A stretch of DNA of 64,000 nucleotides from Paludibacter sp. GTDB taxonomy: Bacteria; Bacteroidota; Bacteroidia; Bacteroidales; Paludibacteraceae. Every line of letters starts with the position of its first letter. The first letter of the stretch is position 1. The DNA lies in NCBI GenBank assembly GCA_019163375.1, contig JAFLKK010000008.1:368313-432312 (forward strand), written 5' to 3'. Shown here one piece after another: positions 17,927 to 53,910 of the stretch. The position numbers and the translations under genes were made by a program. Below the pieces are notes generated by a model, which was given only the letters and a program-made list of their open reading frames with translations, searched no databases and had not been told where the DNA came from.

Positions 17927-18001
17927 AAAAGTTTTTCAAACTTTTTTATTAGCTCCTACCCTATTGTAGATATATAATACAAATTCAATACTACCTAAAA
18001 C

Positions 18002-18040
18002 AAAAAAGCCAACTACATTAACCCTGTAATTGGCTTTTTT
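18002..18040 (+). terminator. Terminator after hisB
   Basis: AAAAAAGCCAA (18002-18012) pairs with TTGGCTTTTTT (18030-18040), ending in a U-run on the plus strand; an A-run on the other side makes it bidirectional. If the candidate core at 17920 is right, this terminator belongs to the phage end rather than to hisB. Confidence 0.8.
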
Positions 18041-18427
18041 GACTTCAATATGCTTGTTTTGAGGTTTACGATTTTTGGAAAAATACCTCTTGCGTAAAGA
18101 AGGGAGGGGTGAGGTTTACTCCATTAGTTAATAACATTTTGACCCCATACCCCCTCTATTCACCCTTTACAATCACTTTAGTTGATAAAATCAATAAAGT
18201 TTATCAACAAACGAAGTAATACATATAGATATTTACCATATTTTATTATTGTTTTGATTTTCTTTTCGTGATTTTTGATAACCTTCTTAGAGGTTGTTGT
18301 TACATTTTTCTTTTTCATAATTATATATTTTATAATATATATCCGGGTTATCATGAAAAGTCTAAATTTGAATAGTTAATAAACGTTAAATGTGCTATAC
18401 ACTTAATAATGAATTATATATAATGAA
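18041..18427. other. Non-coding prophage/host junction stretch
   Basis: No convincing gene is seen here. The first part (18050-18175) has GAGGTTTAC words and polypyrimidine tracts resembling host spacer repeats. At 18181-18208 a perfect 9-bp inverted repeat, GTTGATAAA/TTTATCAAC, encloses 10 nt. The rest is very AT-rich. I searched it for a tRNA fold and did not find one. Confidence 0.5.
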
Positions 18428-18462
18428 AAAAGGCTGCTCACATTGATAGTGAACAGCCTTTT
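18428..18462. terminator. Bidirectional terminator at the prophage left end
   Basis: AAAAGGCTGCTCAC (18428-18441) pairs with GTGAACAGCCTTTT (18449-18462). On the minus strand it closes the small operon ending at 18485; the A- and T-flanks allow action both ways. Confidence 0.8.
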
Positions 18463-18484
18463 GAATTCATTTTAAAGAATTATG

Positions 18485-18781
18485 CTATTTAAGATTCAGT
18501 ATTATAGGATTTGTAATAACAATTTGACCATCCTTTTCCTTTAGAGTTCCAGTGTATTTGTAGTTATAACCGCTAAAATCTCCTACATTGTTCTTTACTT
18601 TTAATTCTACTTTTGTTGAACCCTCAAAACTGTAATTGTCTAAATTGCTACCTTCAACCGGATTTGTGTGTACACAGTCAAGAACGGTAACACCAAAATC
18701 AATCACTTCCAGAAATTCATTTTGACTGGTTTTAAATTTAATTTCACCTTTGGCAAGCATTTCTGCAATATTTACTTTCAT
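18485..18781 (-). CDS. Small unrecognised protein, prophage left end
   Basis: The 98-residue protein is acidic-to-neutral and beta-rich in appearance (STKVELKVKNNVGDFSGYNY, GTLKEKDGQIVITNPIILNL). It has no Trp, so its codes cannot be told apart, and it ends at TAG. It lies 24 nt downstream of the ParB-like gene and is probably translated from the same mRNA. I do not recognise the family. No signal peptide or membrane segment is seen. Confidence 0.65.
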   Translation of the reverse strand: MKVNIAEMLAKGEIKFKTSQNEFLEVIDFGVTVLDCVHTNPVEGSNLDNYSFEGSTKVELKVKNNVGDFSGYNYKYTGTLKEKDGQIVITNPIILNLK

Positions 18782-18805
18782 ATTTTTCTATATTTAGTTT
18801 GTAAT

Positions 18806-19615
18806 TTACTTCTTTAGCTCATACATAACAGCAGCTTTAATTTCTGTAATAATAGCCTCGCCTTTGCATTTCTCAATGGCTTTGATAGTTTCACCCGTTA
18901 GCCGTCCCAAGGCTTCGCAAACAGGCTTATAACCGTCTTCTATTGACAGATCAATTATCGAATCAATAAGATAGCGTTTCGCAACAAATGATTTTGTGAA
19001 CTTAGAAGCTGCTTCGAGGAAACAGTTTGATTTTTCAAGGTTATACTCTTTGATTGGCGCACCTTTCATAATATCAGCGTATACCTTTGCAGTGATCTTT
19101 ACGCTTTTATCAAAGCTGATTATCTTACTGATGGTACTCATTGAGAACTTATCATCAGACAATTTTTTCGCTAATTGTAGAAGCTTATCATCCGGTTTAG
19201 ATAGCATAGCACCGTTTATAAAATTGCTACCTTTCCAACCTTCAACCTCAATATTAGCTTCGGCTAATAAATCTTTTGTGTTGTGATCACTGTAACATTC
19301 AAATAGAAAAATCTTGTCTGGTGCTACTCCAGCCTTAAGCGCAGCAGTATATCGATTTTGCCCATCAATAATGGCACTATAATTTTCTGCTTTAGTTGCT
19401 TCGATTGGCGTTACACCGTCAATCTCAACTAAACTGCAACCATCGGTAACTGCTTTCGTACCCTTGACGTACATTAGTGGAATAATTATACCATATTTTT
19501 TTACAGATTCCATTTTAGAATTTACATTCTTGTCTGTTACTGGTCTGTTTCCATAAATGAAACACGGTGTTAATTGAAGTGCTGATAATTCAGCGATTGA
19601 AATAAATTCTTTCAT
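18806..19615 (-). CDS. ParB/Spo0J nuclease-domain-like protein
   Basis: The 269-residue protein has an N-terminal ParB-like fold. A region suggesting target specification (YGIIIPLMYVKGTKAVTDGC) leads into AIIDGQNRYTAALKAG, where DGQ(N/H)R is the hallmark of ParB-N domains that bind nucleotide. The rest is helical (EVEGWKGSNFINGAMLSKPD and beyond). Stand-alone ParB-like proteins in phages often act as DNA-binding or NTP-dependent modifiers. Its only Trp is TGG. A promoter-like TAATTTTG lies upstream (around 19670). It could be cargo rather than a structural gene. Sure of the domain, not of the role. Confidence 0.75.
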   Translation of the reverse strand: MKEFISIAELSALQLTPCFIYGNRPVTDKNVNSKMESVKKYGIIIPLMYVKGTKAVTDGCSLVEIDGVTPIEATKAENYSAIIDGQNRYTAALKAGVAPDKIFLFECYSDHNTKDLLAEANIEVEGWKGSNFINGAMLSKPDDKLLQLAKKLSDDKFSMSTISKIISFDKSVKITAKVYADIMKGAPIKEYNLEKSNCFLEAASKFTKSFVAKRYLIDSIIDLSIEDGYKPVCEALGRLTGETIKAIEKCKGEAIITEIKAAVMYELKK

Positions 19616-20556: not shown

Positions 20557-20572
20557 ATTTTCAGTGTTTTTG

Positions 20573-20580: not shown

Positions 20581-20585
20581 AAAAA

Positions 20586-20850: not shown

Positions 20851-21978
20851 TTAGCCATATATATCTGTTAGGTTATAATTCAATGTTACTTTATAGTTCT
20901 TCAATCTTGTATTAATTGGCATTATATTGTCACCACCTAAAGTTATCCAATTTAACCCATCCCCATATGCCCCATAGGTATCAAAGAATATATTATCTAA
21001 ATATACACCATTTGATAAATAACCGCTATCAACTGTTATAGTTGTGTTGTTCTGTTGTATTGATAGAATAGTTCCAACAGTTGCATTAATCGAACATTCA
21101 GCAAATGCATCAAAGAACCCCATTGTTGATGGTGTGAAATTCCACACCCAAATCATTTCTACAACACCATTTCCACCACTGTAAGTAGCTGTACCATCAT
21201 TAAACATTATTTCTCTATTTTCGTTAAAATCAAAGAATATACCTGCATCATCATAAGCACTTAAATTACAATTCAAAGAATAAAAACTAAACCTAGTATC
21301 TGAACTAAAATATGTACCGTTACTTGTTTCATCAACCCTCATCCACATTCTAATAGTTAACGCTCCATTTGTTAGAACGGGTGAATCATAGTTTATTTGT
21401 AAAGCATCAATTTGTTTATACCCATTAATTTTTAAATCAATTGGAATATCAAGCGGTTGATTTTTTAATACAACACTTCCACTATATGCACCATTGGTTA
21501 CAATTGTACCTGCATTAGTATCATCCAAATTGTGCCAACTTTCAGAACCCTTACCACCATCAATGGGTGTAATACTACCTGCATACCAATTATGAAACTG
21601 ATTAGTAACTAACTTGAATTTATTCAAATCAGATTTGTAAATTATATCACTAAAACTATTACTTTGTGTTAATGTAGTAAATGGATTGTAATAAGTTAAT
21701 GAATTAGTAGTACTATATGGAATTGTTGTTAATTGTGTAAAGTTATCATTTGATTGTGATATACTTTTGACTATTGAATTATTAATTCCTTGAATTTGTC
21801 CCGAATCTTTAGCCTCTGCATATGGATCTAAAAAAGTTAATTCTTGCGTTATTGTGTAATCAAATTTTAGTTTATTAGTCCATATTCCTGTAGTACCCAT
21901 AAATACATTATTTACCTGTACATTTCCCATTTTTATGTTAGCTATATTATTTATTGAACCTGTGTTAAAATCTCCCAT
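20851..21978 (-). CDS. Phage tail/receptor-binding accessory protein
   Basis: The 375-residue protein starts MGDFNTGSINNIANIKMGN, resembling a phage fibre N-terminus. It then reads as beta-rich, Ser/Thr/Asn/Gly-rich sequence typical of surface-exposed phage proteins. It follows the fibre gene by 8 nt and precedes the holin-like gene. All seven Trp codons are TGG and none TGA, which is unlike the head and tail genes, so the gene may have been exchanged recently from a standard-code phage. The role in host binding is inferred from position and composition. Confidence 0.7.
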   Translation of the reverse strand: MGDFNTGSINNIANIKMGNVQVNNVFMGTTGIWTNKLKFDYTITQELTFLDPYAEAKDSGQIQGINNSIVKSISQSNDNFTQLTTIPYSTTNSLTYYNPFTTLTQSNSFSDIIYKSDLNKFKLVTNQFHNWYAGSITPIDGGKGSESWHNLDDTNAGTIVTNGAYSGSVVLKNQPLDIPIDLKINGYKQIDALQINYDSPVLTNGALTIRMWMRVDETSNGTYFSSDTRFSFYSLNCNLSAYDDAGIFFDFNENREIMFNDGTATYSGGNGVVEMIWVWNFTPSTMGFFDAFAECSINATVGTILSIQQNNTTITVDSGYLSNGVYLDNIFFDTYGAYGDGLNWITLGGDNIMPINTRLKNYKVTLNYNLTDIYG

Positions 21979-21986: not shown

Positions 21987-24900
21987 TTATATTATTATAT
22001 ACATTGTATTACTGTCTTTAGTTAATGAGGCAAATGTTGATTGTGAACCAACCCATATATGTTTACCATCAACTGTATCAGCATTAACATTACTCAATCC
22101 CGAACCGTTACCATTTAAACTACTGGCTGTAACACTACCGACAAATTTTGCATTACCAGTTGATAAACTTATTTGAGCATTTTTATTACCATTATCAGCA
22201 AAAAATATAGAATGCCCAAAACCTGCAATATTTTCATAGCAATAACCGATACCATAATGATTACTTAATGAAGTCCAACCAGCTCCAATTGTCCAAATAA
22301 TTTTTGAAGTTGTACCCGCTTCTGAGTAATCGCCAATCATACCAATACCACCATAACCTGTTTTAAATTGAGCTGCTTTTATTTGACCTGCACTTGTTAT
22401 ATCACCTGTTGCATTTATATCATTTGAATGATAATTAGCTCCATAAATATCACCACTCATTGACAACGAACTACCATACAGGTTATTAAGATATAAATTT
22501 TCTCTACTTCCCCCAGGATTATTATTCAAATAGAATGAACCATTTGTTCCTATTGATATACTACTTGCGACAATACCGCCCCAGTGAAAACCTAGTCTAG
22601 GGGCTGCCTCAACAGCAGTATTACCACCTTGCCCCAACGGCTCTCTAACACAAACAGCATAATTATAACCTTGTCCCAATACTGATGATTGAATACCACC
22701 CCCACCACTATTCATTAAAGAATTAGCGGTTAAACTACCTGCATAACCTGATAGACCTGCACCCGAACCATTAAATTGAGTTGCACCAACAGTACCACTA
22801 AAAACAGAATTACCGTCATTAGTTATAGAAAGTCCTGCATAAAAATCACCAGTCGAGCCACAAACACCCATCCTAACCCATCTATTGATTGTCGATGGGT
22901 CACTTAGTATTTGAACACAACCACCATTAACACCACCCCATATCGTTCTAATATTAGTATTAGAACTTAGATTAATATTACCACCTGTAGTAATATTTTT
23001 GTTTATATCCCATATCAAAGCAGTATTATTAATATTTCTATCAACTCCACCGCCACCAGTACCAAGCCCCCAAGAATTAGAACTTATTGTTTGAATAGCT
23101 CCATAATTAGCACCACTAGCATTAATTAAAATTGAATTTCCTACTGTCGAATTAGTATTTAAAAATAAATCATTAGCAGTTATTTTACCAGTTGAGTATA
23201 AAGAACCATTAATAACAGAATTATCAGAACCATCAATATAAAATGGTGTTGTACCATCGGAAGCATTTCTAATTGAAAATCCAGTGTTTGAAATTCCTTG
23301 TATTGAATTTTTAATATAATATGTTTTTGCTGAACCTTGTGAACCTTGTAATTGTATTCTTGCCTCACCTCCAACATCATTTCTAATTATTACAGCACTT
23401 TTATTAATTAGAGCAATATCACCTGTTCCACTTTCAGCACTAATATATACTGCATTGCCAGTAAACTGTAAGTAACCTTGTCTAACTGTATTTGCTGAAT
23501 TATAACCACTCAAATAAGCGGCATCAGCAATCATTCTTATTCCCTCACCTGCATAAGTATTAACAGTTCCAGTTGCCATTAAAGTACCATTCACTGCCAA
23601 CTTATACCCTTGGTCAGAAATATATCCAATCCCAGTATTACCATTAGGGCTAATATAAAACCTCCCAATATCGGGTACTGTATTAGCACTTTGGGTTGAT
23701 TGAGTAGTAATTGCAAAATCTCCATAAGATTGATAATCTGTATGTATGAACCATTTCCTAGAACTACCATTAGATGCATTATGGTCAAATGATAACATTC
23801 CTACCCAACCTGAACCGCTAGGCAATGATAATCTTCCGTTAATTCCTATACCACCATTAAGAACTAATGCTCCTGTTGATGGTGATAGTGATTGAGTTGT
23901 TGAATTAAGTTTAGTATTTCCTATTCTGTCAATTTCGACCGCTGACCTATATGTTCCAGTTATCTCATCCGCATTACTCTCTGTAGTCAGGAACTTAAAA
24001 CCCATACCACCATAAACTGCATCTCTATTTGGTTGGATTCTACAACCACCTATCGTATTATTTCTATGTAATTCAATATAATTATTCAAATAACTACCAT
24101 CTAAATCAGCAATCCCGATTATATTTTTTGCGGTTACGGTAGAAGCAAAAGTTGCTGCTCCTGATTGATTTATTTTAAAAGCATTAGTAAGATTACCACT
24201 ATTATAAACATCTACATTATAACTTTTATCAGTACCTATTCTTTGTGAAACATAACTACCACCCATTATGATTGCTCCTGTTGTTGGTGTATCTGAATCG
24301 GTAATTGTAGTTTTTATAACTCCACTAATCCACATATTTGCAGATTGTGCAGAGCTATTTTGGTTTAATATGTGGTCGTTAGTGTTGGTATAAGCCGATG
24401 AACCTAAACCTAAGAATCCTTGAATTGCATTAGCGTTCCATTTATAAGCATACCCATTAGTATGTACAGCTAAAATAGAATTAATAGAATTTGTGGTAAG
24501 CACACCTGCACCAAAAGCATTTTCTAAACTACCCCACTTATAACTATTATCAACAGTAGAACCTGCTACATAATAAGTACTATTATCATAACTAACTGTT
24601 GAACCGTTGACCTTAACAAAACCTATTCCGTTAAACTGAGGTTGTGAGCCTGTTGTTTCAATCGCTGTTACCCTTTGTAGTAAGTTCTTACCAACATAAG
24701 CATTAACACTGTTTGATATGTCTTCACTTGAAAAAGTACCGCTTAATAATTCATCAATTTTATATATTCTAGCTCCTAAAGGTTGACCATTTAAAGTTAA
24801 CTTTCCATCAATTGCATCAGTTGATAATACATTGTTATGAGTACCACTATTAATAGTTATATTATGTGATTTTATTGTACCATTTACATTTAATTGGTAG

Positions 24901-25388
24901 CCCTCTGAATATTCAGTATTGATTGATACATTGCCACCGTTGGGATTAATTAAAAGGTCTTGATATACTCCATCAATGATGCTTTGTATTACGGGTTTAT
25001 TTGTCATTTCTGACCCGCTAAGCAAAAGATTACCATCTGCATTAATATCTAGTTTGATGTTCTTAGAATCGCTTACAAGCTCTAAGCTACCTATATTTAG
25101 CTTACCATCTTTATCTAATCCAGCAATATTTTTTGTACCATTTGAAAAGATTCAACCATTACTATTAATAAAATAGTTAGCTGTTTCACCTGTAACACTG
25201 CCTAACAAACCACCTATTGAAGTAGGTAGTTGTATAATTCCGTTTGTAATTAAATTGCTTGTTTGTTGGGTTAATTGCAAATAATTCAAAGGTGCTGAAA
25301 CTAAACCAGAACCACCAGAACTATAATTATTAATAGCAGTAGTTGTTGAACCTCTTTGTAAGGCTATATTTTTACTTTGAAATTCCAT
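21987..25388 (-). CDS. Long tail fibre / side-tail protein (one TGA-Trp codon)
   Basis: The complete frame is 1133 residues, from ATG at 25388 to the stop at 21987, joined by TGA at 25152-25154 read as Trp79 (context NSNG-W-IFSNGTK). The body is full of G/N/S/T-rich beta-helix-like repeats with phrases such as TGNAKFVGSVTASSLNGNGS and GLSNVNADTVDGKHIWVGS, known from bacteriophage and Bacteroidota fibres. The only TGA lies in the N-terminal 80 residues that should attach to the tail; the 13 other Trp codons are TGG. This pattern suggests a conserved phage anchor joined to an imported host-range tip. No chaperone domain was noticed. Confidence 0.85.
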
Positions 25389-25416: not shown

Positions 25417-27525
25417 TTATTTCTTAGATACTATATTCAATAGATTAGTATCATTTTTTACATCTATACTCATACCATCAACAATAAATTTTTCAGTTGG
25501 AAAAATACTATCTATTGTTAGTAATGAATAGGGTTTAAATATATTAGCCAACGTTATATTTAGCTTTTTGGCAGGTGTTGAATACTGATTCACATAAGAC
25601 TGGATAATATTGTATTCTTGCAATTGACTTGTATTTAATGCCTTATTTAACATTGCACTATTGTAAACATATTCACTAGCTCCAAAAACAGGGTTAACAT
25701 TATGCTGCAATACACTGGAGTAACTCATTCCTTTATCGGTTTGACTGCATACTTTTAAATTCATTTCTGAGTATTCATTTACAAAGTCAGTATTGATCAC
25801 ATTTTTATACTCTGTGTCTGTATCGCTATTCTTTGTGAGCTCAGACTTAATTAGTTTAATACTTAGATCTTTAATAAATACATTTTCAGTTCTATAATTA
25901 GAAGTAATGCTTTGGGGTGCATATAATCAAAATTCAACAGCACCCATTAACTGATAAACTTCACCAACAGGAATTAATATCCCTTTCCCGCTAAAGTTAT
26001 CATAATATGCAACTTGATTTTGAACGTCAAATCATTTATGAATTAAATGTTTACCATCACCATTAAATCTAATTTTAAATGTTGAATCTGTCAAACTTCA
26101 TTGAGTACCATTCCAACACCTATTACCAATTTTTAATTTTGCGGTTAGATACAAATTACTAGTTGTATAGGTGTCATTGCTCCGCTCATCACTTTCATCA
26201 ATATAGCTTCTATTGACATCTGACCATAAAGCAGAACCATTAATCAATATTGCATACTGTGTATTATCAAATAAATATGATGCTGTTGGAATAGTTCCAA
26301 CATTCAATTTTAGAACAGGTTTTAGTAGGTTATGATTCCCGGATAAATCATTTCCTAGGTGTCTAAATAATTGAACATAGTTGTTATAACTTATATTATT
26401 AGGATAGCCATCTTTTGAATCAAATGTTCCCATCTTAACTACACAAGCACCTATTTTATTTTGTGTTGTAGTCATATCAATAATACCTGTTATTTCATTC
26501 CAATTTGTATCGTTATCATATTGAATATATGTGTAATCTTTATGAGTGTAATACCTATTAAAATAATACTTATTGTTAGCTGTAAACATATCAGTATGCA
26601 GTCAGTCATTTTCACCAAAAGTATTTGTCAACTTATCTTCATCAAAGAAATCGGGTATTAAAACATCCTTTTTATATGTATTAGTTTTAATTGAAACTTG
26701 ATTATATACTGTTGCCAGTTCCACGGATGCACCATTACTTTTAAAAGAGTTTGCAGTTACATTATATTGATGATTTAATGTTGTGTAACCTGTTGAATAA
26801 TTCAACCAGTTGTTTACTGTTGAATAAGTATGATAGTCAACAAAACCACTTTTTAAGTAATCATAGTTTAGAATATACAACACATCACCATCAGCGACAA
26901 TTGTATAATTTAAGAATTGAAGAAGTTGTGTAAGTACTTCTTTGTATGTAACTGGTTCGTTATCCTCACTAAAAAAGTTTTGTTCACTGACTAGTAACTT
27001 ATCAATTGCCTTTTGATTTTCATAACCACTAATACAATTATTCTCATTGACATATATTTTTGAATAACAATTGCATTTCTTTACTAAATGAATTATTAGC
27101 TCTTCAAATGTTCTTATTTTCTTGTTAACCTCTATTGATTCAAATTTGAAGTTATCCAATGTACTTAAACCATCTATTGCTTCAAGTTCAATACTTTCAT
27201 AATGTTGTTCAAAGCCTTGTGTATATATGTTTGGAGTCAAGTAACCAACTCATTTAATCATATTGTTATCAACATCTCTCAATGTCATTTTAGTACCTTG
27301 TGCAGTTGCAGAATAAAGATTGAAATTGTAACTATCAGATATAATTGTACAAGTTGCATTTGATAATTTCAACGGCTCATAAATTGTATCGTTTGAGTTT
27401 AATTCTATTTTAAATGGTTCATCTGAGAAAATTATCTCAGATGTTCCATTATTACCATCATTTACATTTATATCCACTTGATATAAAGTATTGTTTATGC
27501 TTTTAAATTGTCCTGTGTAGATCAT
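25417..27525 (-). CDS. Distal tail / baseplate hub protein (recoded)
   Basis: With TGA as Trp the frame is continuous for 702 residues. In the standard code it is broken into at least four pieces. The in-frame TGA codons are at 27250, 26602, 26098, 26032 and 25927; contexts include NNMIK-W-VGYL, GEND-W-LHTD and AVEF-W-LYAP. There are also four TGG Trp codons. It starts in the overlap with the tape-measure stop and precedes the fibre gene, the normal place for a tail hub or Tal-like protein. An extended beta-rich middle (about 300-550) fits a structural role. No peptidase motif was recognised. Confidence 0.85.
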
Positions 27526-31272: not shown

Positions 31273-31293
31273 ATATCAATTTGATTTTAAAAC

Positions 31294-40917: not shown

Positions 40918-40946
40918 TTATAAAAGCATTCATATTGCTTTTATAA
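40918..40946 (-). terminator. Terminator hairpin between the putAbiC-like genes
   Basis: TTATAAAAGCA (40918-40928) pairs perfectly with TGCTTTTATAA (40936-40946). It overlaps the last codons of the upstream gene. Confidence 0.65.
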
Positions 40947-44228: not shown

Positions 44229-44361
44229 GCATTTTTAAAATTTTCGATTTTCCACCTACCGGATATTCACCTCGACATCCATACTATAATACCTATCTAT
44301 AATAACTACTATATGGTGCTTTGCACCTTCAAAAAAAATCAACAATTTAAACTAAACGACA

Positions 44362-44544
44362 ATGACAACAGCAATTTTTATTACAGCCTTCGCTTTATTC
44401 TGCATTTGATTAGGTGCTAAAATAGCAGAGTTTATCACAATGAAAAAGATAATCAGATTAAAAAATAAGCAGATAAAACAACTTAGAATGCAAAATCTGA
44501 TAACTAAACAAAGACTTTATATTGAACAATTATTTAAGAAATAG
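44362..44544 (+). CDS. Small membrane-anchored protein (recoded)
   Basis: The 60-residue product has one membrane segment (about 4-20: IFITAFALFCI-W-LGAKI, Trp from TGA at 44407) and a basic tail rich in Lys and Gln (RLKNKQIKQLRMQNLITKQR). It ends at TAG and the next gene starts 1 nt later. Role unknown. Confidence 0.6.
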
Positions 44545-44545
44545 T

Positions 44546-45022
44546 ATGAGATCAAATAGAGAAGAAATAACACTAGATTGAGTAAAAGAGATATTAGCTT
44601 TAAGTGGAATAACAGCAACCGGAACTACAGAACAATATGCTAAACACGATCTGGATTGCTCAAACGGTGGAATAATTGAAGTAAAAGAAAGATGATTAGA
44701 TAAATCTAAGTTTTGACAATACAGTGAACAGGGTTTTATTCTGGAAGATATAAAATATCAGTACTTACTAGGTAAAAAGAGCTTGTACTGTAATGTGTTT
44801 GATTTTTCTGATTTAAAGATAGCTTTGTTTTGAAACGTCAACCAGATAGAAAGTAATATTAGTAGCCTGCTATGTAATGCAACTACTATATTTAGCAATA
44901 ATTCCTATACTAATAAACAAGTCCACCTTGTAAATATAAACCAAACTGCATTCATCTTTTTATATGAAAATGGTGAGTGAATTAGATCAAATAAAGACAC
45001 CCTAATTACCAAATTAAGCTAA
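44546..45022 (+). CDS. PD-(D/E)XK nuclease-like protein (recoded, five TGA)
   Basis: The 158-residue protein needs five TGA codons as Trp (44579, 44693, 44714, 44831, 44978), the highest density in the prophage, and has no TGG. Contexts are TLD-W-VKEI, KER-W-LDKS, KF-W-QYSE, LF-W-NVNQ and GE-W-IRSN. The stretch QYAKHDLDCSNGGIIEVKER has the DX(n)EXK arrangement of PD-(D/E)XK nucleases (Asp about 37 or 39, Glu about 46, Lys about 48). A Holliday-junction or recombination nuclease is possible. The assignment rests on this motif only. Confidence 0.6.
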
Positions 45023-45024: not shown

Positions 45025-45279
45025 ATGAAAATACCACAAGAACAAATTACAGAACAGACCCAAAAGATAATGACGGATTTAGAAGTTTATTCTAATCGTT
45101 TGAAAAAATTAAATGAAGAAATAATTATAATGAATCTACTAAAGGAAGATCTATCACTAATAAATTTATGAGGAAATCCAGAAATTGAAATTTGTTTTGA
45201 TTATTTTATGAATCCAAGTCTTTTGAGAAGTACAGTAAGATTAATTATAGATATTGACCCAAATGAAATTACGAAATAA
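45025..45279 (+). CDS. Unrecognised early protein (recoded)
   Basis: The 84-residue product has one TGA-Trp (45169: SLINL-W-GNPEIEI). The N-terminal half is a coiled coil (EVYSNRLKKLNEEIIIMNLL). It lies 2 nt after the nuclease-like gene and ends TAA, so it is in the same operon. Function unknown. Confidence 0.6.
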
Positions 45280-45448: not shown

Positions 45449-45772
45449 ATGGCACTAACTAAAAGAATCGACTTTTTAAACGGAGTAGTAACAGAATCAG
45501 CTCATATAGTTATAAGCAATATTACGATTGACTGAGATAATAAAACGGCTAATATCAACGTAAAAACATATCTAGATAAAGCCACAAAAGAAGCAGGTTT
45601 GCAACCTATGCAAACAGATTATATCCATATCTCAGATAATGCGCTTCCAATGCAAACAGAAACACCAGTACTAAACTTTACTACTTACTTTTCAGATGGT
45701 AATACTAAAGTTGATGCTGAAACTTATATGTTGACACTGGATAAATATAAAGATTGTACAATAGTTGAATAA
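45449..45772 (+). CDS. Unrecognised early protein (recoded)
   Basis: The 107-residue product uses one TGA as Trp (45533: NITID-W-DNKTAN). It is beta-rich (VVTESAHIVISNITID, TPVLNFTTYFSDGNTKVDAE) and may form a small structural or single-strand-binding fold, but I do not recognise it. It ends the early operon. Confidence 0.6.
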
Positions 45773-45882: not shown

Positions 45883-46434
45883 ATGAATTGGAAAAACATT
45901 AAAGATTTTTTAGGTAAAAACTTGTTAGCTCTTTTGACATTAGCTGTGGCTGTATATATTGGTATTGCACAAATTAATTTACAAAAGCAACTTTATAGTA
46001 TTGATAAGTTCAATGAAGAAAATCGTGAAAATCGTGAAAATCAAATTGAAAAGACAGACTTGGCAAGGCTCACTCGCTCAATTATTGACCTAATTGACGA
46101 AAGAGACCAAAGGCTTAAAATGAATAATAAAGAAAGCGTAGAGGAAAAACTTCAGCTAATAGCTATATTAAAAGAAAAGGTTGATCTTGGATTAAAAAAT
46201 AAATATTTGTACAAGGACAGTTTACTTTATAGTGACTGTCAAGATATAATTAAAACTTTAAATATTTATGAAGGCTTTTTAAAAAATAAAACCAAGTCAA
46301 AACAAGACGCCGAATTACCTATTCATATGAAGATAATAGTTGAAAATGTTTTTGGTGGAGCAAGAAATACTATGAAGACGATTGAAAGTAAATTTGATTT
46401 AAATTTTGAATGTAGAGTTTTGGATAAAATATAA
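45883..46434 (+). CDS. Membrane-anchored coiled-coil protein, cargo
   Basis: The 183-residue protein has one N-terminal membrane segment (about 12-29: LLALLTLAVAVYIGIAQI) and a long charged coiled coil (about 30-90). The rest is helical. The single Trp is TGG (MNWKNIK). It has its own promoter and its own terminator (46464), and stands between the recoded early operon and the GmrSD-like gene. It resembles the membrane/coiled-coil design of the putAbiC proteins but lacks their core motif. Function unknown. Confidence 0.7.
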   Translation: MNWKNIKDFLGKNLLALLTLAVAVYIGIAQINLQKQLYSIDKFNEENRENRENQIEKTDLARLTRSIIDLIDERDQRLKMNNKESVEEKLQLIAILKEKVDLGLKNKYLYKDSLLYSDCQDIIKTLNIYEGFLKNKTKSKQDAELPIHMKIIVENVFGGARNTMKTIESKFDLNFECRVLDKI

Positions 46435-46463
46435 CTAAATATTTCATTTATGTGTTTACGTTT

Positions 46464-46546
46464 AAAAGGCTGATAGAGAAATTTATCAGCCTTTATTATT
46501 GGAAATTTAATTAAGTGAACAAAAAAAGTTGTAAATTTGCAAATAA
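46464..46546 (+). repeat. Terminator-promoter cassette, copy A
   Basis: The hairpin GGCTGATA...TATCAGCC (about 46468-46491) is followed after 26 nt by AAAAAAAGTTG and the -7 box TAAATTTG (46532-46539). The same layout, with the same 26-nt spacing, recurs at 48914-48993. It ends one cargo unit and starts the next. Confidence 0.8.
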
Positions 46547-46724
46547 TAGAGTGTTGTATTTAGGATTGAAATATAATGTGTTACTTTTTATAATACAATT
46601 ACTGTTACATCATTTATTTCACTATTACACAAGTATTTTTTCAATAAAACGTTTAACTCCCATAGACTTGGTTGTTTGGATAATATGTAGAAAATATCAA
46701 CAATAATAAAAAAAATATCAAAAT

Positions 46725-48872
46725 ATGAATGAGCTAGAATCACTTAAGACAATTTTCAAAGACAGAATATTTAAGATCCCCGATTATCAACGTGGATATG
46801 CTTGGACGAAAAGACAATTAAATGATTTTTGGAACGACCTTGTTAATGTTCCAATGGATAGGTATCATTACACAGGACTGTTATCTCTGAAAAAAGTTGA
46901 TAAGAACGTTTGGACTAACTGGAATGAAGAAAAATGGCTAATTGAAGACAGAGGATTCAAGGCATTTCATATTGTTGATGGACAGCAACGACTCACAACA
47001 TTTGTGATTTTTATTCAAGCAATATCCGAACTAATAGAAAATTTAGAAGAAAATAAAGGGAAAACGGATGATGAAATTTATCTTGGTTCATTTAGTCTAA
47101 AAGCGATAAAAGAGGAATACTTAGTTATTTCAAGACCGCCACAATTTATTATAAGAAGTTATAAATTTGGTTATGAGGTAGATAATCCAAGTTTCAAGTA
47201 CCTGAAACATAGAATATTTCAAGAACAAAATAGTGGTACAATTCAAGAAACATTTTACACTCTGAACTTAGAAAAATCTAAAATATTTTTCAAAGAAAAC
47301 TTAGCAAATTACTATGACAAATATGGGCTAAATGAAGTAGAAGGATTATTCAAGAAAATAACTCAGAACTTAATGTTCAATGTTTATGAAATTAGTGATG
47401 ACTTTGACGTCTTTGTTGCATTTGAAACAATGAATAATAGAGGAAAAAAATTGTCAAATCTTGAACTCCTAAAGAATCGCTTAATTTATCTAACGACTTT
47501 ATATGATGATAATGAGTTAAAAACTGATGAACGAAATTCATTAAGAAAAACAATAAACGATGCTTGGAAAGAGGTGTATTATCAGCTTGGCAGAAATAAA
47601 CGAAATCCGTTAAACGATGATGATTTTTTAGTAGCTCATTGGATTATGTATTTTCAATACACAAGAGAAAAAGGAGATGATTATATTCGGTTTTTATTAG
47701 AACAGAAATTTACACCACAAAATATTTATGCAAAAACCGAAATTATTCTTAGTTCATTACAAGACTTTAAAGAAATAATGGAGGAGGAAGATACAGAACA
47801 AGAACAAGAGGAAGAGGAAGAGGAAGAGGAAGAGGAAATAAATGAAGAGGAAGAGATAACTGTTTTACGCTCAAAATTAGCTCCTAAAGAAATTGAAGAT
47901 TATGTGAACAGTTTAAAATCATCTGCTATTCATTGGTATAACACTCATAATCCTATCAACAACGCCGATTTAACAGCAGAAGAAAGTCGTTGGATTGACC
48001 GACTTAATCGAATTGGTATTATTTATTTTAGACCATTGATAACTACTTCCTTTTTGTCTGAACACATTGATTCAAAAAAGAGAGTTCAATTATTTAAAGC
48101 AGTAGAGCGGTTTATATTTATAGCATTTAGAATGAGTCGTTCTATGGCAAATTACAGGAATAGTGAATTTTTCAAAACAGCAAGGTTGTTAAGGCTGAAT
48201 ACAATCTCAGTAGATGAAGTAATTTGTAGATTAGATAGTTTAATTATCGATGTGTTTTCTTATACCTCCGAAAATGATGATAATTTATACTTTTATTCTG
48301 GATATTTTAAAACGTTCTTAGACAAAAAATTTAAATCAGGTGGCGGTTATTATAATTGGAATGGGCTAAGATACTTCCTATATGAATATGAGATGGAAAA
48401 GGTTCGTCTTAGAGGTAGTCAGAAAATTGATTGGAAACTTTTTGTAAAAGGTGAAAAGGATAAAGTTTCAATAGAACATATTTATCCTCAAACGCCAACA
48501 AACAAATATTGGAAAACTAAATTTAAAGATTATAAAAAATCTCAACAACCAAATTTTCAAGGAACACTTGGAAATCTGCTACCTCTTTCACAAAGTATTA
48601 ATTCAAGTTTGCAGAATGATAGTTTTACTGATAAGAAAACTGCGAAATTCAACGACCGAAAAGAGAAGGTACGGCAAGGATATTCTGATGGGTCACACTC
48701 TGAGATAGAAGTATCTATTTATGAGGACTGGAATCCAGACAACATTCTTGACAGAGGATTAAAACTGCTGGAGTTTATGGAAAAACGTTGGAACTTTAAA
48801 TTTGAAGGCGATTCTACTAAAACGGAATTATTATTCCTAGAATTTATGAATATAGATAATTTAAAAAAGTAA
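46725..48872 (+). CDS. GmrSD-like DUF262/DUF1524 protein
   Basis: The 715-residue protein has an N-terminal DUF262 (ParB-like NTP-binding) domain with DYQRGYAWTKRQLNDFWNDL and HIVDGQQRLTTFVIF (Asp85), and a C-terminal DUF1524 HNH nuclease domain (VSIEHIYPQTPTNKYWKTKF, His585, and LGNLLPLSQSINSSLQN). In between is a Glu-rich stretch (about 345-380). This architecture is that of type IV GmrSD-like restriction, which attacks modified or foreign DNA. All Trp codons are TGG. It has its own promoter (46532-46539). It would defend the lysogen, and must spare its own prophage DNA. Confidence 0.88.
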   Translation: MNELESLKTIFKDRIFKIPDYQRGYAWTKRQLNDFWNDLVNVPMDRYHYTGLLSLKKVDKNVWTNWNEEKWLIEDRGFKAFHIVDGQQRLTTFVIFIQAISELIENLEENKGKTDDEIYLGSFSLKAIKEEYLVISRPPQFIIRSYKFGYEVDNPSFKYLKHRIFQEQNSGTIQETFYTLNLEKSKIFFKENLANYYDKYGLNEVEGLFKKITQNLMFNVYEISDDFDVFVAFETMNNRGKKLSNLELLKNRLIYLTTLYDDNELKTDERNSLRKTINDAWKEVYYQLGRNKRNPLNDDDFLVAHWIMYFQYTREKGDDYIRFLLEQKFTPQNIYAKTEIILSSLQDFKEIMEEEDTEQEQEEEEEEEEEEINEEEEITVLRSKLAPKEIEDYVNSLKSSAIHWYNTHNPINNADLTAEESRWIDRLNRIGIIYFRPLITTSFLSEHIDSKKRVQLFKAVERFIFIAFRMSRSMANYRNSEFFKTARLLRLNTISVDEVICRLDSLIIDVFSYTSENDDNLYFYSGYFKTFLDKKFKSGGGYYNWNGLRYFLYEYEMEKVRLRGSQKIDWKLFVKGEKDKVSIEHIYPQTPTNKYWKTKFKDYKKSQQPNFQGTLGNLLPLSQSINSSLQNDSFTDKKTAKFNDRKEKVRQGYSDGSHSEIEVSIYEDWNPDNILDRGLKLLEFMEKRWNFKFEGDSTKTELLFLEFMNIDNLKK

Positions 48873-48913
48873 TAACCTCAATTATTGTAATAGGTGATAT
48901 TTTTTTTATTTAT

Positions 48914-48993
48914 AAGGCTGCTAGAGAAATCTAACAGCCTTTTTTTATAACAAATAGAATTATGTTATAAAAAAAGTTGTAGATTTGTAAATC
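48914..48993 (+). repeat. Terminator-promoter cassette, copy B
   Basis: GGCTGCTA...TAACAGCC and a T-run are followed after 26 nt by AAAAAAAGTTG and the -7 box TAGATTTG (48980-48987). It is about 80% similar to copy A at 46464-46546. Confidence 0.8.
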
Positions 48994-49146
48994 CTTAGCA
49001 TAGAATATTGTCAATAAACAAAATGTCAATATCAGTGCCTATTACGATAACTACTAAGCTTTATTACTTTAATTTATCAATCTTTTTTCAAATCACTACA
49101 AGCTATGCCATTGTTTGTAGTCCATTGTTTAAATAAATAATTACAA

Positions 49147-49881
49147 ATGAAACCGAAAAAGAAAATAATAACATTTATTAAAGCTATTGATAAACAGTAT
49201 TTTGACAGTTTTATCAATGAAGGTCAAGTTTGTATGAATACTATTAAATGGTTTCGAGAATACGAAAAATATGATTCTAATATAGGAGATGAATTTGAAG
49301 GAGCAAGAATGGTTTGTGGTAAAGATTTTACTATTTCTATTGCAGATCCAATCACAGAATATAATTCTGAAGAAGAACTTAATGAGAAGTTGAAATCATC
49401 AAAATGGAAAAAATTAGGAAAAGGTATCAATCTAAAGCAATTTGATGAAAGTGATAATGCAAACATTTTAAGTTTGTATGCTATTACAACAACTAGCGAT
49501 ATAAATTTTGAAGGCTATTTAGTACCACAAAAATTTGCAGAGGAGTTCACCAATCATAGGTTTGTCATTATTTTAGAACCTATGATTTTCATTTCAAGAA
49601 TGAAGTCAGCGATTTTTGAATTTAACAAATCGTTTAAACACGGATTAGTGAATTATTATACTCTGGATGAAAACTTTGTAGAGAATTTATTATATTTCGC
49701 TAAACCAGAAAAATACTCGTATCAAAGCGAATTTAGGTTAGTTGTTGAAGACCCAAATGCTGTTCAACGTATTTTTAAAATTGGTTCTTTGAAAGAAATA
49801 TGTTTAGAAATTGATATAAATAAGGAATATGTATTTTCTATGATCAACGAAACCCAGTTTTCAATTAAGCAGAAAAATTAA
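49147..49881 (+). CDS. Unrecognised cargo protein with MNT-FREYE motif
   Basis: The 244-residue protein is globular, without signal or membrane segments. It has VCMNTIKWFREYEKYD and GDEFEGARMVCGKD, then FAKPEKYSYQSEFRLVVED towards the C-terminus (about 200-220). I have seen this combination in uncharacterised proteins near phage and defence loci, but cannot name the family. Trp codons are TGG only (IKWFRE, SKWKKL). It follows cassette B and is 29 nt upstream of a second unknown gene, so the pair is probably an operon. Confidence 0.72.
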   Translation: MKPKKKIITFIKAIDKQYFDSFINEGQVCMNTIKWFREYEKYDSNIGDEFEGARMVCGKDFTISIADPITEYNSEEELNEKLKSSKWKKLGKGINLKQFDESDNANILSLYAITTTSDINFEGYLVPQKFAEEFTNHRFVIILEPMIFISRMKSAIFEFNKSFKHGLVNYYTLDENFVENLLYFAKPEKYSYQSEFRLVVEDPNAVQRIFKIGSLKEICLEIDINKEYVFSMINETQFSIKQKN

Positions 49882-49910
49882 ATTGACACGAAAAATAGTA
49901 GAATTATAAA

Positions 49911-50636
49911 ATGAGAAAAAAGAAAGATTTACCCCTCTCAATTCTAAAATCCTTAGAACCATTCGTTGACTTAAAAGGTGAAAAATTTGAAGTTGTTGAC
50001 CCAAAAGACAACTTACTCAAAGTAATTGATAAAGACCCAAATTCAGCTTTTCATTTTACAATTGAAAAGTATCAAAAATCTAATAATGATCCGTTTATAT
50101 TTTTAGTCAAAAGAACGCCTAAAAGTATTGATGAAATTGGTACAGATCAAAATTGGTTTGAAGCTTCGGCAATTAACGGTCAATTTAATGATTGGTTAAT
50201 ACTATTGAACGAATATGATACAGTAAAGTCATTTTTTGATGACCCTATTATAAAATCATTTCAAGAAGAATTTTATACAGAATTTGAACTAATTGATGTA
50301 GATGTAGACAGAAGCCCTTTCAAAACGAGTCAGATTCTAATGTTAGATAGCTATTTGGAAGCTGTTGACAATAGATTGAATGAATTTATTACTGAGAATA
50401 ACTCTTGCGAAATTGCAGATATAAAGGCAGACATTAATCTACTTCGTAATAATCTTACATCCAAGTCAAAAAAATGGGTAGTAAAAGAACTTACGACAAT
50501 TTGGGCTAAAATTGCGAAACAAGGGACTATATTCATCCGTGAGTTTTTGACCGAATCAAAGAAAGAAATTATAAAACAAGGAGTGAAGGGAATTTTAGAA
50601 TTTGTGATTGAAAATGGTGCAAATTTGTTGAATTAG
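49911..50636 (+). CDS. Unrecognised cargo protein, partner of the preceding gene
   Basis: The 241-residue protein is acidic in the middle (EFYTEFELIDVDVDRSPF) and helical in the C-terminal part (VKELTTIWAKIAKQGTIFIR, KKEIIKQGVKGILEFVIENG), where an amphipathic, membrane-active helix is possible. Trp codons are TGG only. It ends at TAG. No family recognised. A two-gene defence or toxin-immunity unit is one option, based only on arrangement. Confidence 0.7.
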   Translation: MRKKKDLPLSILKSLEPFVDLKGEKFEVVDPKDNLLKVIDKDPNSAFHFTIEKYQKSNNDPFIFLVKRTPKSIDEIGTDQNWFEASAINGQFNDWLILLNEYDTVKSFFDDPIIKSFQEEFYTEFELIDVDVDRSPFKTSQILMLDSYLEAVDNRLNEFITENNSCEIADIKADINLLRNNLTSKSKKWVVKELTTIWAKIAKQGTIFIREFLTESKKEIIKQGVKGILEFVIENGANLLN

Positions 50637-50694
50637 AAGATGTAAAATATATGTATTTTTCCACTCTGTAGAATTAATCAACTGTCTTAAACTA

Positions 50695-51276
50695 TTAAAC
50701 TACCTCATTATTGTATGTTCTTTTTTCACCATACATTGTTTCATAATCAATATCATACTTTACGGTTTTTAACAAGTCGTAAACTTCATTGAACTCTTCT
50801 TTATTATTAAATTTAATATCAAGTAGGCACAAACTATTATTAGCGGCGAGTGCAATATTAATCGGAGGGTCTGGAAATGAATAATGTTTTAATTTATAAT
50901 TAAAATTAATGTGCTTGTATAATAATATACTAAAATCACCAACTGTTTCATTTTTATATACAAGGCTAAATTTATCAATTATAGCAGTTCCAATTCCACT
51001 GTTATACATTTCAAGTCTAATTGTATAGTCGTTCTGTGATACAGAAAATGGGATGTTTAAAATCGGTTCTACTGATAGTTTACTATGTTTAATTGTGTGT
51101 TCCAAAGTTTGTCTACTATAACTAGCAGAAATCCAAAGTCCCATTAAAGTTACAATAATAGCTAAAACAGCAATGATTATTGTAGGATCTTTGTAATACT
51201 CAATAATTGGTTTTTGATTACCCAAAACCAGAACTTTTACAGTGTCATTCTGTAAAACAGCGTTTAATAATGTCAT
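50695..51276 (-). CDS. Membrane-anchored cargo protein
   Basis: The 193-residue protein has one membrane segment (about 32-50: IIIAVLAIIVTLMGLWISAS), a charged linker (SYSRQTLEHTIKHSKLSVEP) and a beta-sandwich-like outer domain (about 75-190). Similar layouts occur in uncharacterised Bacteroidota defence-associated proteins. It stops at TAA, and its start lies 5 nt after the stop of a tiny membrane gene. Convergent with the unknown pair upstream on the other strand. Confidence 0.68.
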   Translation of the reverse strand: MTLLNAVLQNDTVKVLVLGNQKPIIEYYKDPTIIIAVLAIIVTLMGLWISASYSRQTLEHTIKHSKLSVEPILNIPFSVSQNDYTIRLEMYNSGIGTAIIDKFSLVYKNETVGDFSILLYKHINFNYKLKHYSFPDPPINIALAANNSLCLLDIKFNNKEEFNEVYDLLKTVKYDIDYETMYGEKRTYNNEVV

Positions 51277-51281
51277 AGGGC

Positions 51282-51898: not shown

Positions 51899-51940
51899 AT
51901 CTCATTTTTTTATCGAACAAAGTTAATGTATTTTTTTAAT

Positions 51941-51976
51941 AAAAAAGCTTATCAGAATCAACTGATAAGCTTTTTA
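51941..51976. terminator. Terminator after the integrase gene
   Basis: AAAAAAGCTTATCAG (51941-51955) pairs with CTGATAAGCTTTTTA (51962-51976). It begins five bases after the integrase stop codon on the minus strand. If the integrase TGA were read as Trp, translation would run into this hairpin. Confidence 0.88.
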
Positions 51977-51980
51977 TTTT

Positions 51981-53846
51981 TCAATCTTCAAATACAGTAC
52001 CAAATTTAGTACTCATATATTCTCTAAATTCAGTTTCATCTTCTGGAATAATATCTGGTTTTTTACTTTTTGGATTGGTATATTCAACAGCTGGATAATA
52101 TTCTGAATACATACCAGAATGTTCTAATATTGCACACATTTCATCAAATACATAATATTCCCAATATGAAGAACCAGCTAAGTCTGTAGGGTTGCTGAAA
52201 TAGAAATTATCTGACTCCTTTAGTGTTGCTGGTCTATCTTTACCTTTTAAAAAGGTAGCAACAAAATCTTCAATGTACCAATATTTAAAAATTCTTTTAC
52301 TTCTCTGATTTAAAAGGATATTATAAACAGGATAGTCATACATATTTACTTGTAAAACTACTGAATTATTATCAATCTTGTAAACTACAATATTATCTAC
52401 CACATCATTAATCACCTTTTTCATCTGAACTCTATCAGATTCTATTTTAGTTATTGAATCCGCTGAAAAATCAGAATTTTTAATTAGGTCTATTCTATTG
52501 TTAGTTAAAGAAATATCTGATCTAGCTTTGGATATTTCCCTTTCATAGTCATTTATTGACTTATCAATTTCAGCTTTATCTTTAGCTATATCGTTTATAG
52601 AGAAAATACCCTGTTTTACCACATCTAATAGATTAGCCACCTTTTGCTTCTCAATTAGTATATATCTTTCTCTAAGTGATATTATTTCAAATAAAGGTTG
52701 TTTTTCGGCTTCAAGTTCAGCTATCTTCTTAGCTTTTTCTTCTTCGTCCAAGTTTGCAAATACAAATGAATTATTTTTGATAAAATCCCACACTAAGGCT
52801 TCAAATCTAAAATAATTAAATGTTGTATTGCCACATTTCTCTTTTGTACTTGTATAACTAGTACATAAATAACTACCCGATTTTCCACCAGTATCTAAAT
52901 GCCCAGACATCAAATTGCCACAGTGTCCACAAATAACTTTCTTTTGTAGTAGGTGAGTATGATTTCTTGATTTTTCTATGAATTTGGGGTTTAAAACAAG
53001 TTTCTCTTGTACTTTATCAAATACTTCTTTATCTACTATTGCAGGTACTTCTTTCTTTATTTCTTGAAAGTAAGTTTCACCGATATAAATCTTGTTTTTA
53101 AGCATTGAACTTATTACTCCAACATTCCATTTTATGTTATCAGTAGATTTAGTAAAACCACTTGCATTTTTAAAAGTACCGCTTGTACTATTTTTTTTAT
53201 ATCTGGTATCAAAACCTAATGTATTGGCATATCTTGTTAAGGCTGACAAACTATATTTACCTGTAGAATACTTTTCAAACATATCTAAAACAAATGGTGC
53301 TTCTGTTTCATCAATAACTGTTTTACCTGTTTCAACATCCTTTTTGTAGCCGTAATTAATATAACCACCAGTAGCTAAACCTTTACTAGCTGAATTTCTG
53401 CGACCTCGCATAGTCCTACTTTTTAAAGTTTTTAGTTCTTGTTCAGCAAAATCAAAGAACATACCCACAACCATTTTAGTAGTTGGATCTTCTTCTAAAG
53501 TTGTTCTGTCAAGTGTCCAAATACCTCTATCTTTAAAATAAATTGGTATTTTCATTTCCACAAAATCCCGAACAAAGGATCTTCCATCAATACTACTTCT
53601 ACTTAGTCTGGACACCTCATAAATGAAGATAGCCTTAATTTCACCAGTAGCACAAGCTTCTTTCAATCTGGTAATAGATTTTCTTTCACTTACTCTAATA
53701 TCATCTTTACCTGTTATATGCTCACCAAATATATAATTATCTGGTATATCATACCCAAAACCCTCTGCAATAGGCTTTAAATCATTCTTTTGACTGTCTA
53801 AATCCTGTTGCTCAGTGGACACTCTTAACAATAAAGCTGCTTTCAT
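51981..53846 (-). CDS. Large serine recombinase (integrase), standard code
   Basis: The 621-residue protein has a resolvase domain (about 1-150, RVST with catalytic Ser10, and VSRLSRSSIDGRSFVRDF), a recombinase domain (about 155-270), a zinc ribbon (CGHCGNLMSGHLDTGGKSG, followed by further Cys) and a coiled coil (about 385-450). It integrates the phage and, with a directionality factor, excises it. All Trp codons are TGG and the gene ends at TGA (51981-51983), followed directly by a terminator. So it is written in the host code although the phage lytic genes are not. An exact -33/-7 promoter lies upstream. Confidence 0.95.
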   Translation of the reverse strand: MKAALLLRVSTEQQDLDSQKNDLKPIAEGFGYDIPDNYIFGEHITGKDDIRVSERKSITRLKEACATGEIKAIFIYEVSRLSRSSIDGRSFVRDFVEMKIPIYFKDRGIWTLDRTTLEEDPTTKMVVGMFFDFAEQELKTLKSRTMRGRRNSASKGLATGGYINYGYKKDVETGKTVIDETEAPFVLDMFEKYSTGKYSLSALTRYANTLGFDTRYKKNSTSGTFKNASGFTKSTDNIKWNVGVISSMLKNKIYIGETYFQEIKKEVPAIVDKEVFDKVQEKLVLNPKFIEKSRNHTHLLQKKVICGHCGNLMSGHLDTGGKSGSYLCTSYTSTKEKCGNTTFNYFRFEALVWDFIKNNSFVFANLDEEEKAKKIAELEAEKQPLFEIISLRERYILIEKQKVANLLDVVKQGIFSINDIAKDKAEIDKSINDYEREISKARSDISLTNNRIDLIKNSDFSADSITKIESDRVQMKKVINDVVDNIVVYKIDNNSVVLQVNMYDYPVYNILLNQRSKRIFKYWYIEDFVATFLKGKDRPATLKESDNFYFSNPTDLAGSSYWEYYVFDEMCAILEHSGMYSEYYPAVEYTNPKSKKPDIIPEDETEFREYMSTKFGTVFED

Positions 53847-53874
53847 ATCGGTATTTATTAGTAGTTTTGTGATA

Positions 53875-53905
53875 CAAAAATAACCTAAACATTTTAAACT
53901 ACAAA
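53875..53905 (-). promoter_or_regulatory. Integrase promoter
   Basis: On the minus strand TTTG (53902-53905) and TATTTTTG (53875-53882) are 19 nt apart, an exact match to the Bacteroidota consensus, 29 nt before the integrase start. The candidate attachment core lies 5 nt outside it. Confidence 0.8.
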
Positions 53906-53910
53906 ATGAC

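Follow-up and report, generated by a model that had tools for sequence, protein, structure and literature searches.

A prophage of about 36 kb, occupying positions 17886–53867 of a 64,000-nucleotide stretch of the Paludibacter sp. assembly GCA_019163375.1 (contig JAFLKK010000008.1; hereafter the window), has lytic genes in which TGA almost certainly stands for tryptophan, as judged from sequence comparison. It is of the siphovirus type with a complete gene set, and by its genes appears to be a temperate tailed phage with a large serine integrase, integrated at hisB. The G+C content is 27–35% in the prophage and 37–45% in the host (2-kb steps). An earlier note on this DNA had proposed such a prophage in a standard-code host, at 17927–53910. 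These coordinates were nearly right: the 10-bp direct repeat TTAGTAGTTT, present at both prophage ends, places the ends at 17886 and 53867.

Tryptophan at in-frame TGA codons

TGA and TGG codons number 27 and 16 in the 14 late genes, 13 and 1 in the eight early genes, and 1 and 20 in the two fibre genes. This gives 41 in-frame TGA, or 42 with a small open reading frame (ORF) at 43340, the figure in the earlier note; the late and early genes together hold 40 TGA and 17 TGG, the latter also as it had estimated. All 24 of these genes stop at TAA or TAG and none contains either codon internally, and the sites singled out at the outset are present: ILEG-W-QQF and GFY-W-KE in the terminase large subunit (TerL), NVL-W-AGE in the capsid protein and TTR-W-KK in the HNH endonuclease.

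From 25.4 to 39.7 kb the coding density is 0.508 with table 11, 0.991 with TGA as sense, 0.535 with TAG as sense and 0.509 with TAA as sense. Recoding of TAG or TAA was rejected for this prophage because neither opens the late region. A chance origin of the TGA codons was likewise rejected, since the region opens with TGA as sense only and the codons fall on tryptophan sites. The density of the host flanks stays almost flat with TGA as sense (0.806 to 0.812, and 0.848 to 0.848).

Could the host itself read TGA as tryptophan? We regard this as practically out of the question. Among 223 host ORFs, called mechanically at a length of at least 200 aa from 420 kb, the stops are TAA in 159, TAG in 39 and TGA in 25. 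The release factor 2 (RF2) gene prfB is intact with its canonical frameshift site (by eye), no tRNA with a UCA anticodon was recognised by the host searches described below, and the flanks are not opened by TGA. Host recoding was rejected on the TGA stops, RF2 and the flat flank density; on its sequence the host is a standard-code organism.

Aligning the TGA sites with homologues was a check proposed in the earlier note. The comparison comprised 41 TGA and 37 TGG sites and 39 phage loci with a TGA-free TerL; a good part of these loci are related to one another, so the residue counts are not independent. Of the residues aligned with TGA sites, 305 of 523 are tryptophan; the figures are 197 of 234 for TGG sites and 363 of 83,818 for other codons. 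TGA sites are thus more than 100 times richer in tryptophan than other codons. Among sites with homologues, tryptophan ranks first among the residues at 17 of 32 TGA and 11 of 17 TGG sites. In TerL all eight tryptophan positions are TGA or TGG, the two exchanging, wherever they are aligned in relatives at least 60% identical, the exception being two TAG-recoded relatives, which have TAT at one of the positions. The dN/dS ratios of the TGA-bearing genes are 0.03–0.41 in comparisons with G001, G002, L064 and G007, the exception being the gene at 44522 against G001 (0.79, a short match at 31% identity); by this measure the recoded genes are under purifying selection. Tryptophan at the aligned sites, the TGA/TGG exchange and the low dN/dS together argue for genuine recoding in this lineage and for genes that are in use. 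With the host TGA stops and the intact prfB, they bear out the proposal of a TGA-recoded prophage in a standard-code host.

Several features of the alignment weigh against this reading of TGA. The tryptophan share of the relatives' residues is lower at TGA sites (58%) than at TGG sites (84%), nine of the 41 TGA sites have no homologue, and at 15 of 32 another residue is commonest, often tyrosine or phenylalanine. These 15 are codons 308, 498 and 533 of the distal tail protein, 78 and 378 of the tape measure, 12 of the gene at 30628, 70 of the tail terminator, 9 of the protease, 133 of the portal, 60 and 111 of the methyltransferase, 3 of the terminase small subunit (TerS; tyrosine, phenylalanine) and 44 of the gene at 42194 (phenylalanine), together with both sites of the gene at 42360.

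If the prophage were decaying, its lytic genes would be pseudogenes and the TGA codons ordinary nonsense mutations. No suppressor is detectable, and this copy may be locked for good. Such decay is nevertheless very improbable: the genes open with TGA but not with TAA or TAG as sense, the codons lie on tryptophan sites, dN/dS is low, and in-frame TGA occurs in 16 of 60 rows of a TerL tree. Furthermore, contig G009 of metagenome 3300010965 (L216, L217) is 100.0% identical to window positions 18485–41556 over 23 kb and is the same phage. On these sequences, the density, tryptophan-site and dN/dS tests contradict decay for the lineage.

Distribution of the two codes within the prophage

The proposal of a recoded prophage stands for the lytic genes; it does not stand for the integrase and the accessory genes, and the integrase itself stops at TGA. 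The eight accessory genes and the integrase contain 0 TGA and 36 TGG, against 40 and 17 in the late and early genes (Fisher p 7.2e-13). Gene 51341 and three genes at the left end (0 TGA, 3 TGG) are outside both sets; with the ambiguous gene 51341 (2 TGA, 3 TGG) put on the accessory side, p is 1.6e-11. Five integrases of TGA-recoded phages have 0 TGA and 20 TGG (p 1.3e-7 against the late-gene ratios of their own phages). Where the window integrase has its TGA stop, the 97%-identical copy in G002 has TAA. Two of the five integrases end at TGA, with the frame of the L102 integrase cut by hand; the latter apparently ends at TGA codon 557 and, if read through, would hold TGA at codons 557 and 574.

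Gene 51341–51898, which adjoins the integrase, has TGA at codons 153 and 160 and may stop at the first of these (51440), like the integrase; it has no homologue.

Two considerations tell against a functional split. The fibre genes are late and yet hardly recoded (1 TGA, 20 TGG), although they may be recent imports, and the split is in part expected from history, the accessory genes probably being recent imports as well. Recent import suffices to explain the accessory genes but less so the integrases, and we consider it very probable that the split is functional.

Candidate readers of TGA

TGA-recoded relatives of the phage carry tRNAs with a UCA anticodon of two types. Loci L041, L042, L052 and L070 share one identical 71-nt tRNA with A1-U72 and G73, features that mark bacterial tRNA-Trp; a helicase-like gene lies on one side of it and a small ORF on the other, and its anticodon stem has two mismatches (features by eye). 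The second type, a UCA tRNA with G73 and a long variable arm, is present in L082 (7655–7748) and L119 (9493–9586), both from Bacteroides neonati, and in L102 (7539–7635), from Proteiniphilum acetatigenes. Rfam scores that of L082 as tRNA-Sec-like, under the cut-off, and that of L102 has an unusual T-loop. Such long-armed, partly tRNA-Sec-like UCA tRNAs in TGA-recoded prophages are an odd type of suppressor. L082 and L119 look like one prophage; in L119 (9992–13210) the B. neonati TerL is split by an unrelated 429-aa ORF.

R1, one of two models built from relatives' UCA tRNAs, recovers the other type at 26.8–30.3 bits. Of the 28 loci from TGA-recoded relatives, 26 were searched with R1 (all but L065 and L067); seven have a tRNA inside a window-like phage, and most of the others are fragments. 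The R1 match in G001 is in the crAss-like part of that contig. No UCA tRNA was found in G003 (28.1 kb) or in the circular-looking 28.8-kb unit of G001. A relative at the same insertion site as the window prophage does carry one.

In the window, general tRNA searches detected no tRNA, and the two relative-built models, run with filters off, gave at best 10.1 and 11.7 bits, none accepted. A relaxed cloverleaf scan reached at best 18, within the range of 20 shuffles (0–19), and four real UCA tRNAs score 20–23. Permissive ARAGORN yielded no usable tRNA, with 14 to 126 chance tRNAs in its ordinary mode, BLAST and nhmmer with the L082 tRNA made no credible match outside L082, and inspection of the prophage gaps by eye and by folding revealed none. 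The gap at 44.2–44.4 kb looks like an iteron-bearing origin.

The prophage might nonetheless encode its own UCA suppressor, too divergent for the present models and switched on at induction. The L102 tRNA, with its unusual T-loop, escaped both ARAGORN and Rfam and was found through a relative-built model, and passages of PMC7886860 and PMC12386605 name a divergent tRNA as one way to account for recoded phages in which none is detectable. We consider this unlikely, although it deserves to be taken seriously. The two model scores in the window lie well below those at which R1 finds the other type, the cloverleaf optimum is within the shuffles, and the position of the L052 tRNA is occupied by another module. 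The window, G001 and L064 have a replication initiator and iteron-like repeats where L052 has the helicase and the tRNA. In the TerL tree the window pairs with tRNA-bearing L042, and L067, the same phage as G001, with tRNA-bearing L052; the tRNA has thus been lost or gained more than once, and its gain or loss probably went with the early module.

The TerL tree comprises 60 proteins, after rows under 45% identity, rows under about 420 residues and identical rows were dropped. In-frame TGA is present in 16 and TAG in four, and 40 have neither; the best tree requires seven code changes, and the well-supported branches alone require four for TGA and two for TAG. The relatives of L058 have glutamine at two of its three TerL TAG codons, so that neighbours in the tree mix TGA as tryptophan, probably TAG as glutamine, and the standard code. 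L057, L058, L096, L097, L098 and L120 have a TerL of the same family with 3–9 in-frame TAG, likely read as glutamine, and L096 carries a tRNA with a CTA anticodon (5772–5843).

A suppressor supplied by the host has also been suggested for recoded phages without a tRNA, as has a divergent tRNA, according to the relevant passages of PMC7886860; it was searched for in this host and not found. The host assembly is rated 99.99% complete. The Rfam tRNA and tRNA-Sec models, the two relative-built models and a pattern recognised no UCA tRNA there in a search that was not exhaustive. Three whole-genome searches scored 150 of 311–339 first-look candidates and a fourth scored 116 of 116; the hits lacked both tRNA-Asn and tRNA-Ile, which shows that some host tRNAs were missed. 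The pattern gave 96 hits (63 in the backward control), of which 48 were checked with ARAGORN and none is a UCA tRNA. One candidate, G000:C4:22711-22785 (L009 711-786), called Cys-ACA by ARAGORN, is mispaired and lies beside two tRNA-Val in a tRNA cluster; it was set aside as a likely pseudo-tRNA. The only tryptophan tRNA among those found has anticodon CCA, A1-U72 and G73.

This tRNA-Trp(CCA) could itself read UGA as a near-cognate while the phage lowers RF2 activity, with no dedicated suppressor. Near-cognate reading of UGA is expected to insert tryptophan, and host ORFs stop at TGA less often than at TAA or TAG (25 of 223). Such a mechanism is improbable here. The RF2 gene is undamaged and has the usual frameshift site. 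The A24 form of tRNA-Trp is the suppressor form, and the host tRNA has G24 (by eye). TerL would require five readthroughs, and the capsid and major tail proteins each have a TGA. The base after TGA (A 16, G 12, T 8, C 5) shows no leaky context when compared with that after TGG (A 12, G 13, T 8, C 4), and no RF2 antagonist was recognisable among the proteins scanned. Nor was a phage RF1 or tryptophanyl-tRNA synthetase present among the PHROG and Pfam matches of the scanned proteins, a scan that fell short of every small ORF.

Another phage may be the source. Contigs G001 and G025 (L208–L211, L225–L235) hold a phage of about 175 kb whose late genes contain TGA. ARAGORN finds 25 tRNAs in this phage, including a UCA tRNA with A1-U72 and G73. 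The TerL of the phage is related to records that we take to be from crAss-like phages. A fibre stretch of 1.95 kb, 99.9% identical, links the phage to a window-like one, and G025 begins with hisB-side sequence 97% identical to the window flank. The common fibre stretch suggests a common host. This stretch and the join are the only grounds on which a crAss-like phage is put forward as the likely tRNA donor.

The chain of events that we propose begins in the lysogen, where RF2 would end the synthesis of each TGA-bearing lytic protein at the first in-frame TGA even if the genes were transcribed. The integrase and accessory proteins would be made whole, and the result would be a translational lock in addition to repression. 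The lock would yield to a tRNA-Trp(UCA), and phages of the L052 type have their own. In the window lineage the segment with helicase and tRNA is replaced by a replication-initiator segment without one, and the phage would borrow an opal-suppressor tRNA, most plausibly from a TGA-recoded crAss-like phage or an L052-type phage. Since the searches of prophage and host recovered no UCA tRNA, the lytic genes are likely to be fully translated only with a tRNA supplied in trans. As a whole (lysogeny genes in the host code, lytic genes with TGA as tryptophan, a suppressor tRNA probably supplied in trans), we rate this chain at somewhat short of an even chance. We advance only tentatively the stricter idea of a code-locked prophage, its lytic half unreadable by phage or host and productive only once tRNA-Trp(UCA) arrives with another recoding phage or with a same-site relative, the borrowed tRNA being the lytic signal.

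Against this chain it must be said that a tRNA can evade detection, as that of L102 did, and that the host searches were incomplete in reach. The join in G001 and G025 may be an assembly chimera of a crAss-like and a window-like phage, or may instead be a real cointegrate. Supply in trans is itself an inference.

Gene map, insertion site and known systems

The earlier note had proposed a search with the terminase, portal, capsid and tape measure products; PHROG matches were obtained for these and, also on the minus strand, for TerS, the head protease, adaptor, closure, neck, tail terminator and major tail proteins; the integrase has one too. Pfam matches are to a large serine recombinase, HNH, D12 methyltransferase, GmrSD and two putAbiC proteins, and the integrase has Resolvase, Recombinase and zinc-ribbon domains (Table 1). 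A conserved hairpin and terminator at 43190–43300, downstream of a Bacteroidota-like promoter (by eye) and upstream of the replication initiator, are a possible small RNA. The small conserved ORF begins ATG TGA (43340–43345), with TGA as codon 2, likewise in G001.

Table 1. Coordinates of prophage genes, flanking host genes and repeat sequences in the window.
Feature	Position	Strand	Basis or remark
Host hisB, left flank	16741..17889	+	HAD and IGPD domains
TTAGTAGTTT, left copy, attL core candidate	17886..17895	.	overlaps hisB stop codon
Fibre/receptor-binding candidate, 0 TGA, 7 TGG	20851..21978	-	by position
Tail fibre candidate, 1 TGA, 13 TGG	21987..25388	-	96–98%-identical stretches in fibre genes of G001/G025
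Distal tail protein candidate, 5 TGA	25417..27525	-	by position
Tape measure protein, 3 TGA	27525..30626	-	PHROG
Tail assembly protein candidate, 2 TGA	30628..31311	-	by position
Major tail protein, 1 TGA	31333..31776	-	PHROG; Trp 22/27 compared residues at TGA
Tail terminator, 1 TGA	31799..32188	-	PHROG
Neck/tail completion protein, 1 TGA	32190..32624	-	PHROG
Head closure protein, no TGA, no Trp	32630..32950	-	PHROG
Head-tail adaptor, no TGA, no Trp	32954..33262	-	PHROG
Major capsid protein, 1 TGA	33273..34472	-	PHROG; Trp 31/35 compared residues at TGA
Head maturation protease, 1 TGA	34472..35023	-	PHROG
Portal, 3 TGA	35001..36239	-	PHROG, phrog_12
TerL, 5 TGA, 3 TGG, all at Trp positions	36250..37863	-	PHROG, phrog_9
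Accessory gene, 0 TGA, 3 TGG	37863..38525	-	
D12-class DNA adenine methyltransferase, 3 TGA	38552..39262	-	Pfam
TerS, TGA at codon 3	39262..39642	-	PHROG
putAbiC-domain accessory gene, 0 TGA, 4 TGG	39713..40885	-	Pfam
putAbiC-domain accessory gene, 0 TGA, 2 TGG	40941..42065	-	Pfam
Small DNA-binding-like protein, 1 TGA	42194..42382	+	ribbon-helix-helix by eye
Early gene, 2 TGA	42360..42827	+	
HNH endonuclease, 1 TGA	42790..43101	+	Pfam; Trp 33/34 compared residues at TGA
Replication initiator candidate, 1 TGA, 1 TGG	43452..44228	+	
Intergenic stretch, AGGTATTATAG-like repeats	44229..44361	+	iteron-like by eye; L052 has UCA tRNA and helicase module here
Small membrane-protein-like ORF, 1 TGA	44362..44544	+	by eye
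Early gene, 5 TGA, 0 TGG	44522..45022	+	
Early gene, 1 TGA	45025..45279	+	
Early gene, 1 TGA	45449..45772	+	
Accessory block around GmrSD homologue, no TGA in any	45883..51276	.	genes 45883, 49147, 49911 on +; 50695 on -
GmrSD-type restriction endonuclease homologue, 0 TGA, 14 TGG	46725..48872	+	Pfam
Large serine integrase, 621 aa, 0 TGA, 5 TGG inside	51981..53846	-	stop TGA at 51981–51983
TTAGTAGTTT, right copy, attR core candidate	53858..53867	.	just upstream of integrase start
Host type I phosphodiesterase gene, right flank	53998..55611	+	domain match, neighbour in relatives

The insertion site at hisB is empty in relatives, and the short direct repeat flanks the prophage. hisB and the phosphodiesterase gene lie close together with no prophage between them in nine of the 11 relatives' loci that hold hisB; in the other two no match to the phosphodiesterase gene was found within the locus. 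The window HisB is 89% identical to a Paludibacter propionicigenes protein, which suggests a Paludibacter-like host. TerL was found in six of 393 genomes of the order, the window's own counted, with in-frame TGA in that one only. A TerL scan of the genome contigs used patterns containing tryptophan, presumably in the form of TGG, and its count of recoded relatives is therefore probably too low. Scans of viral contigs gave one contig for the integrase and five for the replication initiator, all previously found.

Ivanova is said to have described stop-codon-recoded phages in 2014, code 4 included. Of 73 code-4 phages, 11 encode a suppressor, and the hosts of many others are Mycoplasma or Spiroplasma, according to a passage of PMC11210395. 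Code-4 phages resemble the window phage in having TGA at tryptophan sites mainly in late genes and in their standard-code Bacteroidota hosts (passages of PMC7886860, PMC11210395 and PMC10746230), and resemble its kin in the UCA suppressor tRNA of some and in code switches over short distances. The window phage differs from them in being temperate, in its site at hisB, in its stark code split and in a suppressor tRNA detected in neither phage nor host. The earlier note held that a complete integrated temperate phage with table 4 is much less described; it had missed that prophages with a recoded stop have been published for standard-code bacteria, credited to Borges 2022 in a passage of PMC10746230. 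Recoding as a switch from lysogenic to lytic growth has likewise been proposed, with credit to Borges 2022 in a passage of PMC12386605. Those prophages, as far as the citing papers describe them, share the standard-code host and the proposed use in a lytic switch; the window prophage differs in that its integrase stops at TGA and in a suppressor gene that is apparently absent from it and present in a same-site relative.

CrAss-like phages (Crassvirales) also have TGA-recoded late genes, and the crAss-like part of G025 shares the fibre stretch and carries a UCA tRNA. The window phage is unlike them in its TerL (phrog_9 against phrog_6681) and portal (phrog_12 against phrog_6547), and in being small and temperate with a serine integrase. 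Phage satellites (P4- and PICI-like) depend on a function brought by another phage. The window phage would be like them in such dependence, which is predicted from the missing tRNA, and is unlike them in having its own head, tail and packaging genes. Searches confined to open-licence papers turned up none on a suppressor borrowed from another phage.

What is new here is the code split, the failure to find a UCA tRNA in either the prophage or its host when a same-site relative has one, and the seven code changes on the TerL tree. For those recoded phages that lack a detectable suppressor, passages of PMC7886860 and PMC12386605 consider as possible readers a tRNA of the host, a phage tRNA that escapes detection, or something else. 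A complete prophage, a near-complete host genome and a same-site relative with the tRNA make the question of which molecule reads the codon testable in this system. The clean code split and the TGA stop of the integrase give strong comparative support to recoding as a lytic lock, and a need for the tRNA of another phage, if true, would be a new kind of dependence between phages.

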